From Paremcibacter congregatus (lineage in GTDB: Bacteria > Pseudomonadota > Alphaproteobacteria > Sphingomonadales > Emcibacteraceae): DNA of 64,000 nt. The stretch is from assembly GCF_006385135.1 (NCBI RefSeq), contig NZ_CP041025.1, forward strand, positions 2,077,501 to 2,141,500, given 5' to 3'. Positions 9,714 to 55,995 of the stretch are shown here, piece after piece (within the stretch, counting starts at the first letter, position 1; every line of letters starts with the position of its first letter). A program made the translations under genes and the position numbers. Below the pieces are notes generated by a model, which saw only the letters and a list, made by a program, of their open reading frames with translations, ran no database searches and was not told where the DNA came from.

Positions 9714-12700
9714 ATGAAGATCAACCGCCGTTTTACTTCTGCCGACCAATCACCCTACCACGGAATCGATTTCAGAACCGCGGACAGCGAGATTCGAAAT
9801 CCTGACGGGACGACGGTTTTTGAGTTAAAGGGCTTTGAAGTTCCGGCTGACTGGAGCCAGGTGGCGGCCGATATCCTGGCACAGAAATACTTCCGCAAGT
9901 CCGGCGTGCCTCAGTGCCTGAAAAAGGTTGAAGAAAATGACGTGCCAAGCTGGCTGTGGCGTCACAAGACAGACGAAACGGCAATGAAGAAAGTTGCCAC
10001 CGAGGACCGCTATGGCCCGGAAAAAAGCGCCAAACAGATTTTCGACAGATTGGCCGGCACCTGGACCTATTGGGGCTGGAAAGGTGGCTATTTCACCGCA
10101 GAAGAAGATGCCCGCACCTATTTCGACGAACTGCGCTACATGCTGGCCCGTCAGATGTGCGCGCCTAATTCGCCGCAATGGTTCAATACCGGTCTGCATT
10201 GGGCGTATGGCATCGATGGCCCGGCGCAAGGACATTATTATGTTGACCATGAAACCGGCAAGCTGACCAAATCCAAGACAGCCTACGAACACCCGCAACC
10301 CCATGCCTGCTTTATTCAGGGCGTCAGCGACGATCTGGTCAATGAGGGAGGCATCATGGATCTCTGGACCCGCGAAGCCCGCCTGTTTAAATATGGTTCC
10401 GGCACCGGCAGCAACTTTTCCAACATCCGCGGCACCGGCGAACCTCTGTCAGGCGGCGGCAGTTCTTCCGGCCTGATGAGTTTCCTGAAAATTGGTGACC
10501 GGGCGGCCGGCGCGATCAAGTCCGGCGGCACCACACGACGGGCCGCCAAGATGGTGATCGTTGATGTGGATCACCCTGATGTATCAGAATTCGTCAAATG
10601 GAAAGTGACCGAGGAACAAAAGGTTGCTTCCCTCGTCGTCGGATCCAAGATCACCAAACAACATATGAAAGATATCCTGAAGGCCTGCCATTCAAAAGAG
10701 GTCGATGAAGAGGATCGCCTGAGCCCGAAAACCAATCCGGCGCTGAAAACCGCCCTGATTGCAGCCCGCAACTCTCTTGTCCCCGATGCCGTCAGTCAGC
10801 GGGTTATTCAATTCGCCCAGCAGGGTTTCACCCAGATCGAATTCGACACCTATGATACAGATTGGGATTCAGAGGCCTATGTCACCGTTTCCGGGCAAAA
10901 TTCCAACAACACCGTACGGGTAACCGACGATTTCATGGAAGCTGTTCTGAATGACAGCGACTGGAACCTGATCAGTCGTCGCGACGGCAGCACCACCAAA
11001 ACCCTCGCCGCCCGTGAACTCTGGGATGATATCGCCCTTGCCGCCTGGCAGTGCGCCGACCCCGGCCTGCAATATCACACCACCATCAATGACTGGCATA
11101 CCTGTCCGGAATCCGGTGAAATCCGTGCGTCTAACCCCTGTTCGGAATATATGTTCCTGGATGACACCGCCTGCAATCTCGCCTCCCTCAATCTGATGAA
11201 ATTCCGCTCACAGGACGGCGAATTCATGATTGATGACTTTGAACATGCTGTGCGTCTATGGACCGTGGTGCTCGAAGTGTCCGTGATGATGGCCCAGTTT
11301 CCGTCAAAAGAAATCGCCCAACTGAGTTACGACTATCGCACCCTGGGTCTCGGATTCGCCAATATCGGCAGCTTTATCATGGCGTCCAGCCTGTCCTATG
11401 ACAGCGACGAAGGCCGGGCGCTCTGTGGTGCCATATCCGCCCTGATGACCGGTGTTTGTTACGCCACATCTGCGGAAATGGCGTCTGAACTCGGCGCTTT
11501 TGCCGGATATGAGAAAAACAAAGACCATATGCTGCGGGTTATCCGTAATCACCGTACGGCCGCACTCGGCGAGACGCAGGGCTATGAACAGCTTTCCACC
11601 CTGCCCCTGCCTCTGAATATTGTCAATTGTCCACAGCCAAAGCTTTCTGTTGCCGCCGGGATGGCCTGGGACCGGGCGCTGGAACTTGGCAACTTGCATG
11701 GCTATCGCAACGCCCAGACAACCGTAATTGCCCCCACCGGCACCATCGGCCTGGTGATGGATTGCGACACCACCGGCATCGAGCCTGACTTCGCGCTGGT
11801 GAAATTCAAAAAACTTGCCGGCGGCGGCTATTTCAAGATCATCAACCGCATGGTGCCGGAAGCCCTGAAAAATCTTGGCTATACCCCTAAACAGATCGAT
11901 GAAATTGCAAAATATGCCGTGGGGCATGGCACTTTGGAAGATGCTCCAGGCATCAACCACGATATCCTGCGCAACAAAGGTTTTGGTCGGGTACAACTTG
12001 ATACGCTCGAACAATCGCTCGAAAGCGCCTATGACATCACTTTCGTTTTCAACCAATGGACATTGGGCAAGGAATTTTGCATTGATGTCCTCGGCTGTAC
12101 GGAAGAACAGCTTGCCGACATGAACTTCAATATGCTGACCCATATGGGATTCAACAAATCGGCGATTGATGAAGCCAATGAATATTGTACCGGAACCATG
12201 ACCTTGGAAGGCGCACCTCATCTAAAGGATGAGCATCTCGCCATCTTCGATTGTGCGAACCCCTGTGGCAAGAAAGGCACCCGTTTCCTCTCTGTCGACA
12301 GCCACATCATGATGATGGCCGCCGCACAGCCGTTTATTTCCGGCGCCATTTCCAAGACCATCAATATGCCGGCCTCGGCCACGACGGAAGATTGCAAGGA
12401 AGCCTATCTCAAGTCATGGAAACTGGGTCTGAAAGCCAATGCATTATACCGTGACGGCTCTAAACTCAGCCAGCCGCTAAGTTCTGCCCTGCTGGATGTG
12501 GAAGATCTGGAAGAAGATCTGCCGTTGCCAGAAAAAGTTCAGGTTTATGCCGAGAAAATTGTCGAAAAGATCGTTATGCAGTCCGACCGCCGCAAGATGC
12601 CGGGCCGCCGCAAGGGCTATACCCAAAAGGCCTCCGTTGGCGGGCATAAGATCTACCTGCGCACCGGCGAGTATGACGACGGCACATTGGGTGAAATATT

Positions 12701-13349
12701 CCTCGACATGCATAAAGAAGGCGCCGCTTTCCGCAGTTTGATGAATAATTTTGCAATTGCCCTCTCTATCGGGCTGCAATATGGCGTGCCGCTAGAAGAA
12801 TTTGTCGACGCCTTCACCTTCACCAAGTTTGAGCCGTCAGGCCAGGTGGTCGGTAACGACGCCATTAAAATGGCGACGTCTGTCCTTGATTATATCTTCC
12901 GGGAACTGGCGGTCTCTTATCTGGGGCGTCGGGATCTGGCTCACGTCAACACGGACGACCTTACACCGGACACCATTGGCCGCGGTGATCAGAGCCTCGG
13001 GAGTGATCCGGCGACTAATGAGGCGCTTGATCGGGTGATCTCCTACGCCAGCACCGGCTATGTGCGGCGGAATAATCTTTATGTCCTGAATACCGCCGGA
13101 GAGGATAAAACCCAGGTGGAAGCCCGCGATGTAAACCAGGAACAGGTTTATGAAACCAAGAAAATGGCTTCTGGCAGTACCGGCGGCAACATCAGCAGTA
13201 AAGCAGATATTCGGGCGTCCCGCGCCATGGAAGCCCGCATCAAGGGATATGAAGGCGACGCCTGCACCGAATGTGGGAATTTCACCATGGTGCGCAATGG
13301 TACCTGTTTGAAATGTGACACTTGTGGCACCACCAGTGGCTGTTCTTAA
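9714..13349 (+). CDS. nrdJ: Adenosylcobalamin-dependent ribonucleoside-diphosphate reductase (class II)
   Basis: Reduces ribonucleotides to deoxyribonucleotides with a B12-generated thiyl radical, so no oxygen or diiron cofactor is needed. The 1211-aa length fits the large alphaproteobacterial NrdJ. Visible motifs include [56 protein letters not shown] and [20 protein letters not shown]. The extreme C-terminus carries a cysteine-rich ECGN...[14 protein letters not shown] tail, consistent with the redox and zinc-binding end of the family. It is a single-gene unit. The gene implies that the host makes or imports cobalamin. Confidence 0.97.
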
Positions 13350-52296: not shown

Positions 52297-52382
52297 TTCA
52301 TTCTCCAAAAATTTCTTAATCACAAGCCCCTCTCCAGGCATGCTCAAAAGGTAATACGGAAAATATCACATAAACCCTGCGC

Positions 52383-53594
52383 CTAATTTGATTCTGACCC
52401 GTCTTTTGCGACACGACGTACAAATCTTGCGATGAACAGCACAGAAAGGCAGAAAAAAGCCATCACATAATAGCCCTGCCCTTCGAAGCGCGCGTATAAA
52501 GGCCCCGCCAAAAGCATCACTGATCCTTGCGCCAATCCCAACGGGACAGAACTATACAAGGACTGCGCTGTGGTGAAATATCGATCTGGAACCCGGCTGG
52601 AGAGATAATACATCGCCACAAGATGCGCCGCTCCATACGTCAAGCCATGCATGGTCTGCGCCAACGCCAGCAGCGGCACCGACGCCGTCATAGCCAGGAC
52701 ACCCCAGCGCACCGCCCCCAACACCCCAATGGTGGCCAGCACATACATCGGACGGAAACGCCGTATAAAACTGCCACAAAAAATAAAAACCACAATCTCC
52801 GCCACCACCCCCAGGCTCCATAACAGACCAATTGTCTGGTTATTAATGCCCTGGCGTTCCCAATGGAGACTCCCCATGACATAGACCAGACCATGGCTCA
52901 TCTGGATCAAACTGAGCACCACTAGAAACATGATAAATTCACGACTGGTCAACAGGAAACGCAACGCCGGTTCGTGATCGGCATCCTCTTCTTCTGTTGC
53001 TGTGACCTTGGGCTTCTGTTCTTTCGGCAGCAGGACTACAGCAAAGAAAGTCGTAACCAGTGCGCCCAGGCAAAAATACAGAAAATGATCATATCCAAAA
53101 TAATCAAGATAATAGCCAAACGCCACGGATGTCAGAACAAATACAATCGAGCCCACCGCGCGCAGACGTCCATATTGCAAATCATACCTGTCTGCCGCCC
53201 GCACGGCGAAACTTTCCAGCAACGGCAGAAAACCGGTAAAGGCGGCAGCAAAAATAATCGTCACCACCGCATAAGCCCAAAAGCTTGAAAAAACAAAATA
53301 TCCACAAAAACTCAGGGCGGCAATCGCCATTAAAGCCAGCATAGGGCGGCGTACCATCCCCCATTTATCACAGAGCTGAGCAATAAACGGCGATGACATG
53401 ACCTTAAGAAAAGACGGAAACCCGATCAAAAAACTGATCTCGCCAGGTGTCATTCCCACCTTTGCCAGCCACAAGGCCCAGAAAGGCATGATAATGCCGA
53501 TATAAAGAAACACACCACCATAGACTCCCCCCACCTGATAGGCGATCGGTTTGCGAAATCCATTAATGTGATTATCTGTCGGCATATAAAGCAC
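52383..53594 (-). CDS. MFS transporter, HcaT/MFS_1-like
   Basis: Major facilitator of 403 aa with about 12 membrane helices and a short loop of charged residues (KVTATEEEDADHE) between the halves. Its sequence pattern (FWALWLAKVGMTPGEISFLIG, FLPLLESFAVRAADRYDLQYGRLRAVGSIVF, LHWERQGINNQTIGLLWSLGVV) fits the MFS_1-like group that includes the phenylpropionate permease HcaT and LacY-type symporters. The ATG at 53585 (MPTDNHI) is a likely alternative. It lies 62 bases downstream of the RdhA-like gene, in the same direction, suggesting uptake or export of that enzyme's substrate or product. Confidence 0.88.
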   Translation of the reverse strand: MLYMPTDNHINGFRKPIAYQVGGVYGGVFLYIGIIMPFWALWLAKVGMTPGEISFLIGFPSFLKVMSSPFIAQLCDKWGMVRRPMLALMAIAALSFCGYFVFSSFWAYAVVTIIFAAAFTGFLPLLESFAVRAADRYDLQYGRLRAVGSIVFVLTSVAFGYYLDYFGYDHFLYFCLGALVTTFFAVVLLPKEQKPKVTATEEEDADHEPALRFLLTSREFIMFLVVLSLIQMSHGLVYVMGSLHWERQGINNQTIGLLWSLGVVAEIVVFIFCGSFIRRFRPMYVLATIGVLGAVRWGVLAMTASVPLLALAQTMHGLTYGAAHLVAMYYLSSRVPDRYFTTAQSLYSSVPLGLAQGSVMLLAGPLYARFEGQGYYVMAFFCLSVLFIARFVRRVAKDGSESN

Positions 53595-53656
53595 TTACCC
53601 TGAACTTTTAAATTCAAATACTAAGCACCTTTTCCAACCGGTTCGTCAAGTCTTTC

Positions 53657-54850
53657 TTAGTTGCCCCACCAGCCCGCCGATTTCTCTCTCGGACGGGGAT
53701 GAAATCGGTCATCCAGCCATAAGGCGAACCGACGAAACCGGCTCCCCGCCAACTTCTGCCATACCCGGTTAACCCATTTCGTATAATCACGGTTATAAGG
53801 GCAGACACGGATACAAATCGAACAATCTGTATTCTGGTTAACCCAGAACCTGAAGCATTTTTCGGCATCTGTCGTCCATTTAACCACCCCTTTCAGGTTC
53901 GACCGGTTAAAAATCTTGTCCGATGGAGGATCAAAACTGATCGCCTTGGGCGGGCAGCCCTTGGCACACCTGTTGCAAACATCACAGAACTCTTTAACGC
54001 CAAAGCTTTTAGGTGCGTCATGCACAAGAGACATATCAGTAAAAATCTTACCCAGCCGCAACCGCGCGCCATATTCTTCAGTGATTAACAGACTGTGACG
54101 ACCTCCCTCCCCAAGCCCCGCCTGCACCGCCAGAGGCACCGCCAGCGCAGAATCATTCATCGTCGCATAAGCGCGATAGCCAAGATTACGGATATACTGA
54201 GTTATGGTTAGCAATGTGACACAATCGTTTGTGTAGCCCATACCCGTCGCCGACCCCGCAAGCGCCGACGGTACCGTAGAGGTCAATTCCTTGTCCATTG
54301 ACTCCCCGGTGACAATCACATGTGGCAAATCATCCGGAATGCCCGAGGGTTTGGACTTGCCCTCCCCGTCATAAACGCCTTCATACATCCATCTGGCATC
54401 ATAAGCACAAATTCCCACCAAATCAGCCCCGGCAAAAGCCGATACCTTCCGGATATCATCACTCGCCTGCTGAGCAGATTCAAAAGCATAAGGTTCCGGC
54501 CAGCCTTCTTCATGGGAGGTAAAATGATCGTGAAAGCCTTCCCGTCGACCTTCCTTCTGCTCCCGCAGCACATTACAGACATGCCAGGCCGCATTGCGCA
54601 ATGCATAGTCACGTTGACTGAAACCATCTGACTTGCGCGCCTTGGCATGGGGCATATAATACCCCTGATAAAAGTCGATAACCTTCTGACTGCTCACCCC
54701 TTCATCCCATAGGGCCCGGCAGAACACGTCGTCGCGCTGGTTAAATTTTTCGAAGGTCTCTAACACCTCTACTCCGGTAAGCTCATCTATCTCTCTACGA
54801 TGATCAAAATAATTCTGGCGTTGTGTATTCTCTGTTTTTGAAGAGGACAT
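53657..54850 (-). CDS. Short cytosolic reductive-dehalogenase-like Fe-S corrinoid protein
   Basis: Protein of 397 aa resembling RdhA reductive dehalogenases. The family core is visible as LGYRAYATMNDSALAVPLAV, QAGLGEGGRHSLLITEEYGAR and LRLGKIFTDMSL, followed by two ferredoxin-type sites. Cluster 1 ligands are Cys289, 292, 295 and 299 (CDVCNRCAKGCP). Cluster 2 uses Cys332, 343, 346 and 350 (CX10CX2CX3CP), the RdhA spacing. There is no Tat signal and no RdhB anchor gene, unlike respiratory enzymes, so it is likely cytosolic. Unlike NpRdhA-type catabolic enzymes it has no fused reductase domain. Epoxyqueuosine reductase (QueG) is a distant relative but fits less well. It is divergent from a MarR gene. 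Confidence 0.8.
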   Translation of the reverse strand: MSSSKTENTQRQNYFDHRREIDELTGVEVLETFEKFNQRDDVFCRALWDEGVSSQKVIDFYQGYYMPHAKARKSDGFSQRDYALRNAAWHVCNVLREQKEGRREGFHDHFTSHEEGWPEPYAFESAQQASDDIRKVSAFAGADLVGICAYDARWMYEGVYDGEGKSKPSGIPDDLPHVIVTGESMDKELTSTVPSALAGSATGMGYTNDCVTLLTITQYIRNLGYRAYATMNDSALAVPLAVQAGLGEGGRHSLLITEEYGARLRLGKIFTDMSLVHDAPKSFGVKEFCDVCNRCAKGCPPKAISFDPPSDKIFNRSNLKGVVKWTTDAEKCFRFWVNQNTDCSICIRVCPYNRDYTKWVNRVWQKLAGSRFRRFALWLDDRFHPRPREKSAGWWGN

Positions 54851-54893
54851 TCTGTTATCTCAATTGTCAGGTGGGTTAATATCCCAAGCCTAT

Positions 54894-54925
54894 CACATTA
54901 TTGTTTGATATCAAACAATAATGTG
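54894..54925. promoter_or_regulatory. Perfect 32-bp palindrome, likely MarR operator
   Basis: The half-site CACATTATTGTTTGAT is followed directly by its exact reverse complement. It lies 43 bases before the RdhA-like ATG and 46 before the MarR ATG, where a bound dimer could block both promoters. A perfect repeat of this length is very unlikely by chance. Confidence 0.85.
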
Positions 54926-54971
54926 CAACACTATATATAATAACAATATTATCGATATTTTGGAAATAAAT

Positions 54972-55427
54972 ATGACGAACACAGATTTTGATTATGGGAT
55001 ATTGCATCATATGGTTGGCTTGGAACTGCGCAAAGCCCAGGCTCTGGCCAACCAGACCTTTCTCTCCGCCCTCGAAGGCCAGCTCCTGCCCGGACATTAT
55101 ACAGTTCTGGTTCTCATCGCTAAAAACCCGAACCAGTCCCAAAGCCGCATCGCCGAGGCCGCGGGCCTCGATCGTTCATCCCTGGTTCCCATCTTAAAAC
55201 AATTTGAGAAAGATGATTTAATCAAACGTTACCCTGCACGTCATGACCGGCGCGCCAAAATCATGACCATCACACCCAAGGGGACGGGCCTCATCACAAA
55301 ATATGAAAAACAGATCAAGGCGCTCGAGCAAACCGTATTATCCGGTCTCGGGCCAGAGAACCATGCCAAACTGGTGGAACTTCTGCTGGCTTTTCAAGAG
55401 GTCCTCAAGACCCGGCTTGATACATAA
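54972..55427 (+). CDS. MarR family transcriptional regulator
   Basis: Winged-helix repressor of 152 aa. The DNA-binding part reads SQSRIAEAAGLDRSSLVPILKQFEKDDLIKRYPARHDRRAKIMTIT in overlapping segments with the DRR wing, flanked by helical dimerisation regions. MarR proteins are usually released from DNA by small aromatic ligands. It is divergent from the RdhA-like gene with a 32-bp palindrome between them, so it probably represses itself and that operon. The ATG at 54972 is preferred over 54921, which would overlap the palindrome. Its 3' end overlaps convergent recX by 23 bases. Confidence 0.9.
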   Translation: MTNTDFDYGILHHMVGLELRKAQALANQTFLSALEGQLLPGHYTVLVLIAKNPNQSQSRIAEAAGLDRSSLVPILKQFEKDDLIKRYPARHDRRAKIMTITPKGTGLITKYEKQIKALEQTVLSGLGPENHAKLVELLLAFQEVLKTRLDT

Positions 55428-55995
55428 CCTCTTCCAGTTCGTCACGAGGCATCTTCAGAACCTTGAGCGCCATCTGATAGGAAAAGCCCGCACGGCACAG
55501 GCTCGCCAGCTCCTTTTCTATAATATCAACCCCGTCATGACGTAAACTGAACGCGCCGAAACGTCGCTTGCGCAAATATTTCACAGCCGCCATATAATCC
55601 AGGTCCAGATCATCCATTTCTTCCGCCAGATCATGAAGCACTTCATCAACCACATTCGGCGCCACCCCTTTGGCCTGAAGTTTCTGGCTAATCGTACGCC
55701 GTGAATTGCCGTTTCTGTTCAGGGACGCTGATTTCGCGGCAGCAAAAGACCGATCATTGACAAGATTTTGTTCCATGGCACGGGTGACAATTTCCTCAAT
55801 CCACGTCTGCGCCTCTTCGTACAGGCTATCCGCATTCTCTTCTTCCCCCGACAGCATAAGACGCCGCCTGACTTTACGGTCCAGCACATCACGTAGATTT
55901 TTTTCTGTCGTTGCAAAGCGCTGCAGGTAACTATAAGTTGCTCTTATCAGGTAATCCCTGGTCAACCGCTTCTTTTTATGTGGTTTCTTATCCAT
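55405..55995 (-). CDS. recX: Regulatory protein RecX
   Basis: Modulator of RecA filaments. The 196-aa product has the three-helix RecX repeats: YLQRFATTEKNLRDVLDRKVRRR, NDRSFAAAKSASLNRNGNSRRTISQKLQAKGV and the C-terminal FGAFS...LCRAGFSYQMALKVL. A basic N-terminus (KKPHKKKRLTRDYL) is usual in Alphaproteobacteria. recA is not adjacent. Its end overlaps the MarR gene by 23 bases; its start lies 23 bases from the divergent DMT transporter gene. Confidence 0.9.
   Translation of the reverse strand: MDKKPHKKKRLTRDYLIRATYSYLQRFATTEKNLRDVLDRKVRRRLMLSGEEENADSLYEEAQTWIEEIVTRAMEQNLVNDRSFAAAKSASLNRNGNSRRTISQKLQAKGVAPNVVDEVLHDLAEEMDDLDLDYMAAVKYLRKRRFGAFSLRHDGVDIIEKELASLCRAGFSYQMALKVLKMPRDELEEVMYQAGS

Follow-up and report, generated by a model that had tools for sequence, protein, structure and literature searches.

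The 64,000-nucleotide stretch of the Paremcibacter congregatus genome analyzed here (the window, C1:2077501-2141500 of a single-contig 4.19-Mb genome, contig NZ_CP041025.1) encodes a cytosolic reductive dehalogenase of the RdhA family, referred to below as RDH, together with a permease of the major facilitator superfamily (MFS) and a divergent MarR-type regulator. This module might represent an inducible catabolic system for an imported halogenated aromatic compound, with the tryptophan type as the first candidate, a reading whose chances we regard as evenly balanced. The three genes had been recognized in a first-pass annotation made from the DNA alone and are confirmed at the same positions, with the MFS gene 62 bases downstream of the RDH gene:

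53657-54850, minus strand: RDH, cytosolic single-core reductive dehalogenase (RdhA family), 397 amino acids (PF13486, TIGR02486, PDB sequence matches, AlphaFold model).
52383-53594, minus strand: MFS_1_like permease, nearest to 3-phenylpropionate (HcaT) models (PF12832, 9e-54; PRK11128, 234 bits).
54972-55427, plus strand: MarR-type regulator, divergent from RDH (PF01047; start taken from the lengths of relatives).
54894-54925, no strand: putative operator, a perfect 32-bp palindrome with the core TTTGATATCAAA (core kept beside MarR in 9 of 9 loci).

RDH matches the Pfam domain PF13486 with 36.2 bits (cutoff, 24.3) and the NCBIfam profile TIGR02486 (“reductive dehalogenase”) with 163.6 bits (cutoff, 160.35), which places it in the superfamily. 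A chance open reading frame (ORF) is ruled out, since the genome collection contains 15 loci that encode relatives with 65 to 85% identity. All eight cysteines of the two 4Fe-4S sites are invariant among 44 aligned sequences. These data bear out the RdhA core motifs and paired 4Fe-4S sites reported in the first-pass annotation. The counterparts of the active-site residues of PceA, an exported, respiratory enzyme, were counted by hand on an ungapped alignment with that protein:

53951-53986, minus strand: first 4Fe-4S motif, CDVCNRCAKGCP, residues 289 to 300 (C289-C292-C295-C299-P).
53798-53824, minus strand: second 4Fe-4S motif, CSICIRVCP, residues 343 to 351, plus C332 (C332...C343-C346-C350-P).
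54233-54235, minus strand: Tyr206, equivalent to PceA Tyr246, likely proton donor (Tyr in 44 of 44 sequences).
54155-54157, minus strand: Asn232, equivalent to PceA Asn272 (Asn in 39 of 44).
54056-54058, minus strand: Arg265, equivalent to PceA Arg305 (Arg in 43 of 44; Lys in the fused dehalogenase of the same host).
53843-53845, minus strand: Trp336, equivalent to PceA Trp376 (Trp in 39 of 44).

The roles of these residues in PceA, including that of Tyr246 as the proton donor, have been described (PMC5500849), as have the Tyr-Lys dyad of NpRdhA (PMC7565698) and the Tyr-Lys/Arg dyad in RdhAs (PMC10463259).

RDH has no twin-arginine translocation (Tat) signal, and a hidden upstream one is excluded by an in-frame TGA four codons before the ATG; in the relatives L006, L009, and L011, the conserved domain begins within a few residues of the protein start. 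A simple hydropathy scan finds no transmembrane stretch in RDH and no RdhB-like small ORF with multiple transmembrane segments in the region from 50.5 to 58 kb. Pfam and NCBIfam profiles detect no fused PDOR reductase domain, which marks one of two subfamilies of the NpRdhA/BhbA-type catabolic enzymes, and the 397 residues contain a single core, with no vestigial duplicate. The absence of an export signal, anchor, and fused reductase, as originally proposed, is therefore upheld by the upstream TGA, the hydropathy scan, and the domain profiles.

Sequence searches against the PDB retrieve 8q4h (1.3e-48), PceA (6.3e-44), NpRdhA (3.5e-24), and QueG (2.7e-8). The AlphaFold model of RDH (pLDDT, 91.4; pTM, 0.90) superimposes on 8q4h with a Z score of 43.2 (370 aligned residues, 2.0 Å), on PceA (4uqu) with 38 to 40, and on NpRdhA with 33 to 34. 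Thus, the structure prediction that the first-pass annotation had suggested matches solved dehalogenases over nearly the whole length. Together, the model and the conserved residues support an RdhA-type site in RDH, which would be loaded with a corrinoid. Corrinoid use by the host agrees with the presence of the B12-dependent NrdJ in the window (9714-13349, 2148 bits), as the first-pass annotation had pointed out.

A tree of 101 core sequences places RDH within a group of 57 proteins of roughly 400 amino acids (support 93/97, short of full) and, inside it, within an inner clade of 39 (99/89). The 15-member NpRdhA group (100/100), which includes a fused enzyme of the host, and a 24-member group of mostly short forms of about 330 residues are separate from it. 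PceA and 8q4h adjoin the 57-member group on long branches, and their exact point of joining is unsure. QueG stands apart from RDH. That RDH could be a QueG paralogue for tRNA modification is suggested by a weak match to the QueG profile TIGR00276 (59 bits; cutoff, 200), but the host has a separate QueG elsewhere that scores 439 bits, and both tree and fold side with RdhA; a QueG identity is accordingly ruled out, and the paralogue explanation can be considered refuted. The phylogeny against RdhA, NpRdhA, and QueG, also suggested by the first-pass annotation, thus leaves RDH outside QueG.

RdhAs form four subfamilies by domain layout, with the catabolic ones marked by a vestigial duplicated core (PMC10463259). 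RDH resembles PceA of Sulfurospirillum multivorans in its single core and in keeping the Tyr246/Asn272/Arg305/Trp376 set, whereas PceA is exported and respiratory (PMC10463259). With NpRdhA, BhbA, and JtRdhA it shares the cytosolic location, the missing Tat signal, and the presumed catabolic role; those enzymes, in turn, have a vestigial second core, most of them a fused PDOR domain, and a Tyr-Lys rather than a Tyr-Arg dyad. The first-pass annotation had listed NpRdhA among the enzymes with a fused reductase, which is not borne out by PMC10463259, where NpRdhA is described as lacking it. QueG, the epoxyqueuosine reductase, has the same B12 and Fe-S core fold but lies outside in the tree, with 16 to 21% identity to RDH and a Z score of 15 to 16 over an alignment of only about 200 to 210 residues.

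The closest published layout is that of Ros_A3X954 from Roseobacter sp. MED193 (2026), a Tat-less reductive dehalogenase that debrominates 2,6-dibromophenol. It contains PF13486 at residues 174 to 269 and Fe-S motifs CDICTKCADACP at 283 to 294 and CAICMRVCP at 337 to 345 (PMC13101508), nearly the same positions as in RDH. A0A2T7UTL8, another Tat-less single-core protein, is active on 2,4,6-triiodophenol, as cited in the same paper. L105 and L107, outer members of the 57-member group with 46 and 44% identity to RDH, carry the Ros_A3X954 motif strings letter for letter, and a spacing of 54 residues between the two Fe-S motifs is common to Ros_A3X954, RDH, and L105. Compared by motif strings and positions only, Ros_A3X954 likely belongs to this outer subclade, unlike RDH. 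Homologues of rdhA without Tat signals have also been noted in sediment metagenomes (PMC3939436), and a marine metagenome has yielded T7RdhA, which is also PceA-like (PMC10008544). Judged by sequence, RDH is thus neither a respiratory RdhA nor an NpRdhA/BhbA-type enzyme, and it has the Tat-less single-core layout of the Ros_A3X954 type. The original statement that it fits neither of the first two types agrees with this. With Ros_A3X954 and A0A2T7UTL8, however, stand-alone cytosolic dehalogenases are already published and known to be active, so that RDH is not a form without precedent.

The regulator matches the MarR domain (PF01047) with 44.6 bits and is weakly similar to the SlyA and HpaR models, below their cutoffs. 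Its listed start, 54921, falls inside the palindrome CACATTATTGTTTGATATCAAACAATAATGTG between the RDH and MarR genes, affecting 54921-54971. Starting at 54972, it has 151 residues, compared with 148 to 149 in the ORFs of the relatives (L003, L005, and L014), and 54972 is the likely start. The 12-base core of the palindrome was scanned from 350 bases before to 60 bases after the estimated RDH start in 58 loci, with L011 and L012 coming from one genome and L015 left out for lack of upstream DNA. With at most two mismatches, the core is found in all nine loci with this MarR beside the RDH gene (the window, L002, L003, L005, L006, L010, L014, L134, and L135), from Emcibacter to Halieaceae, and in only one of the 48 others (L013, one mismatch). 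The sisters of L013, L008 and L016, have the core with four and three mismatches, respectively, and L004, a relative from the genus of the host that lacks this MarR, with five. Such core sites occur by chance at a rate of 0.03 per 320 bases (28 in 294,039).

The MarR proteins of both classes, Alpha- and Gammaproteobacteria, form one group (99/97) in a comparison with only two unrelated MarRs, and this group includes gammaproteobacterial MarRs linked to RDH or to PrnB genes. Such a MarR also stands at the head of a pair of genes for PrnB and a pyridoxal phosphate (PLP) enzyme in L162 and L166, with no RDH within the 1.5 kb examined; there, the core lies directly before the MarR gene, with two mismatches and one mismatch, respectively. 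In five other PrnB loci (L159, L165, L168, L169, and L171), sites with one or two mismatches lie elsewhere than before such a MarR. A wider regulon in the host is rejected: its genome has a single exact 18-bp site and four others with three mismatches, versus two in a reversed control. The palindrome, with a core that recurs in the loci with this MarR, appears to be new.

The MFS protein matches MFS_1_like with 183 bits and the HcaT 3-phenylpropionate model PRK11128 with 234 bits, below the equivalog cutoff of 259. Within the genus, the MarR gene is found beside RDH in 6 of 7 loci and the MFS gene downstream of it in 7 of 7 loci whose sequence covers the respective side. The conserved MarR-RdhA-MFS linkage that the first-pass annotation had proposed to check holds in the genus, but, unlike the MarR/operator link, the MFS link is not seen outside it in the neighbor survey of the 58 loci. 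In L003, 2.5 kb separate the MFS gene from RDH, and other genes lie in between; by eye, these (L003:9428-11493) include PAS-domain and chemoreceptor-like genes, as if the substrate were sensed for taxis.

The neighbors of the relatives were surveyed by tblastn for named genes in the same 58 loci, many of them cut by contig ends; loci absent from the tree were assigned to a clade by identity. In the inner clade, 28 of 40 loci have a Trp/Tyr permease, PrnB, tryptophan 2,3-dioxygenase (TDO), kynureninase, neurotransmitter:sodium symporter (NSS) family protein, or HmgA in the available flanks. The outer clade has such neighbors in 2 of 18 loci, L100 (kynureninase and TDO) and L152 (PLP enzyme and PrnB); for this contrast, Fisher's P is 3.9e-5, uncorrected for kinship. 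One genus of the host's family contributes 13 loci, of which 11 have an NSS gene and two end before its position. Bacterial NSS proteins carry amino acids. Other combinations include TDO plus kynureninase (L097 and L123, one genus), NSS plus HmgA (L007, L009, L011, and L012), a tryptophan permease (L008, L013, and L016), a Trp/Tyr permease (L004, L137, L138, L150, and L151), MarR with PrnB, a PLP enzyme, and a permease (L134 and L135), and PrnB with a PLP enzyme (L149). The inner loci without any such neighbor are seven from the genus of the host, L006 (PLP gene only), L082, L091, L136, and L140. The PLP gene of L006 is rejected as a kynureninase (54 bits; cutoff, 246) and excluded from the counts.

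Assignments of the neighbors rest on hidden Markov model scores: kynureninase, 315 bits in L097 and 321 bits in L100; TDO, 421 bits in L100 and 233 bits for PF03301 in L097; HmgA, 628 bits in L007; PrnB, 595 bits in L134; and Trp_Tyr_perm, 456 bits in L134 and 280 bits in L138. The L008 permease scores 475 bits against the tryptophan permease model (cutoff, 515) and 419 bits against that for aromatic amino acid transporters (cutoff, 350). TDO is found in 8 of the 13 genomes tested, in 5 of them above the cutoff. The association of the relatives with aromatic amino acid genes appears to be new. Two further neighbors have no assigned family. L080:6882-7973, by eye a membrane protein without a Pfam or NCBIfam match, recurs beside RDH in 9 of 13 loci of one genus, and L007:9143-10081, a secreted-looking protein without a Pfam match, recurs beside RDH in several gammaproteobacteria.

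PrnB, the pyrrolnitrin enzyme, takes 7-chloro-tryptophan and also tryptophan as substrates (PMC11791213). Genes of its family closely adjoin RDH relatives in L134, L135, L149, and L152, and none is seen near RDH in the window. Co-occurrence counts reject PrnB as an obligate partner of RDH. A PLP gene (class V PLP enzyme) adjoins PrnB in 15 of the 20 gammaproteobacterial PrnB loci read (L157 to L176); therefore, this uncharacterized and perhaps tryptophan-related PrnB-PLP pair looks like a pathway of its own, and the dehalogenase looks like an optional first step.

In the proposed mechanism, MarR would occupy the palindrome and repress both divergent genes until an aromatic ligand arrives, and the MFS permease would import the substrate. 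RDH, with its corrinoid and two 4Fe-4S clusters, would take electrons from an unlinked donor and replace a halogen on the aromatic ring with hydrogen, with Tyr206 and Arg265 in the role that the Tyr-Lys/Arg dyad plays elsewhere among RdhAs. The product would pass into ordinary catabolism of aromatic amino acids or aromatic acids. A natural halogenated aromatic amino acid, or a compound closely derived from one, is the most probable substrate, with the tryptophan type first in line because such neighbors are found in 28 of 40 inner but only 2 of 18 outer loci; this substrate class is moderately supported for the inner clade and less so for the window itself. The original proposal of corrinoid-dependent reductive cleavage of an imported aromatic compound agrees with a cytosolic, stand-alone protein that has an RdhA-type site by model and residues, whereas cofactor loading, repression, dehalogenation by RDH, transport, the electron donor, and the substrate are inferred.

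Several observations weigh against this mechanism. No analysis here shows a halogen directly, and no search was made for halide-related genes. The 28 positive inner loci are related and represent fewer events, about ten lineages by count, and the NSS proteins among their products score only as “sodium-dependent transporter.” In the genus of the host, a tryptophan-type neighbor is found in only one of eight loci (L004, a permease 4.2 kb away), whose genome, G014, gave no TDO match; the constant partner there is the MFS gene nearest to the phenylpropionate carriers. Three gammaproteobacteria whose RDH adjoins a tryptophan permease (G424, G427, and G428) also gave no TDO match. In one gammaproteobacterial family of 140 genomes, PrnB is found in 24, RDH in 7, and both in 4 (P = 0.017), with the two genes close together in only two of these four (G1037 and G1099). 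Among the six neighboring proteins scanned with Pfam, no ferredoxin or reductase is seen. MarR proteins often bind similar A/T-rich palindromes. In L013, the core precedes the estimated RDH start by about 46 bases although no such MarR was found beside RDH; it might be a remnant, a chance site, or the target of an unlinked regulator.

RDH might instead be a general debrominase of the bromophenol type, with no substrate shared with the amino acid genes near its relatives. The activity of the Tat-less Ros_A3X954 on 2,6-dibromophenol and the presence of its exact motifs in L105 and L107 speak for such a role, but 23 inner and 8 Ros-like outer sequences differ at ten nearly fixed positions, including Gly205/Glu adjoining the catalytic Tyr, and the tryptophan-type neighbors are concentrated in the inner clade; a bromophenol substrate is thus unlikely, if by no means negligible. 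Alternatively, RDH might act on a halogenated aryl-propionate or hydroxy-aromatic acid brought in by the HcaT-like permease, with the tryptophan link confined to other lineages. The constancy of the MFS gene in the genus, its closeness to 3-phenylpropionate carriers, and the weak SlyA and HpaR similarity of MarR are in line with this explanation, which we consider quite unlikely given the missed HcaT cutoff and the regulator and palindrome core held in common with PrnB loci. Finally, RDH might take part in aromatic amino acid catabolism by reductively cleaving a bond other than carbon-halogen. QueG demonstrates that the fold is capable of other reductions, and the gene context favors aromatic amino acids, not by itself a halogen. 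Nevertheless, RDH keeps the PceA Tyr/Asn/Arg/Trp set, and proteins that share its layout are known to release halide (PMC13101508), which makes a non-halogen reaction improbable.

A broader picture can be outlined, to which we give somewhat less than an even chance. Proteobacteria, many of them marine, may process halogenated tryptophan (or tyrosine) in a pathway dedicated to it, with import by an amino acid permease, dehalogenation by a cytosolic corrinoid enzyme, and then ring opening either by TDO and kynureninase or by a PrnB-family heme enzyme with a PLP enzyme. One MarR/operator system would be shared by Alpha- and Gammaproteobacteria in several lineages, with the window as the Emcibacter branch. 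Marine natural products often contain halogenated tryptophans and tyrosines. No paper in the open-access literature searched links kynureninase or bromotryptophan to a reductive dehalogenase, or brings halogenated tryptophan together with a dehalogenase and degradation; most subscription papers lie outside that scope. With such a pathway, a clade of uncharacterized enzymes would gain a testable substrate, orphan PrnB-PLP gene pairs would gain a function, and soluble stand-alone dehalogenases would become available for use in aerobic hosts.

The nearest relatives of both RDH and MarR are encoded in metagenome-assembled genomes named Emcibacter or Alphaproteobacteria. Recent foreign DNA is not indicated, as the G+C content of the RDH, MFS, and MarR genes is 50 to 51%, compared with 50.5% for the window. 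The region 52300-55600 has 2 promoter-like sites against 3.7 expected and 2 terminator-like sites against 4.2 expected, neither of which was taken as evidence. The host encodes TDO at C1:1896177-1896965 and kynureninase at C1:1893345-1894505, both more than 200 kb from RDH. Its second reductive dehalogenase, a 1,075-residue protein, is also encoded outside the window (C1:1162258-1165485; L020:10258-13485). This protein matches TIGR02486 with 220 bits in two stretches, includes a fused reductase-like part, and has a Tyr-Lys dyad, as in the NpRdhA/BhbA kind; PF13486 by itself does not detect it.

Of the 32 genomes in the host's family, 31 match the model at an E value of 1e-10, a count that includes QueG, and 21 have a match that exceeds 400 bits. 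Such a match is found in 13 of 385 genomes of a class sample, the host among them, with at most four candidates per genome scored. Among gammaproteobacteria, matches at 1e-80 are rare, being found in 1 of 390 genomes in an order sample around G423 and in 10 of 206 and 7 of 140 genomes of two families. One member of the host's family, G002, has 16 model matches in a 2.4-Mb genome. Its two tandem arrays (L121:4454-10545 and L122:4052-10358) each consist of five dehalogenase-like genes for proteins of about 340 to 390 amino acids. By eye, the first array is accompanied by genes for a PDR-like reductase and a TonB-receptor-like protein, and the second one by meta-cleavage-like genes.

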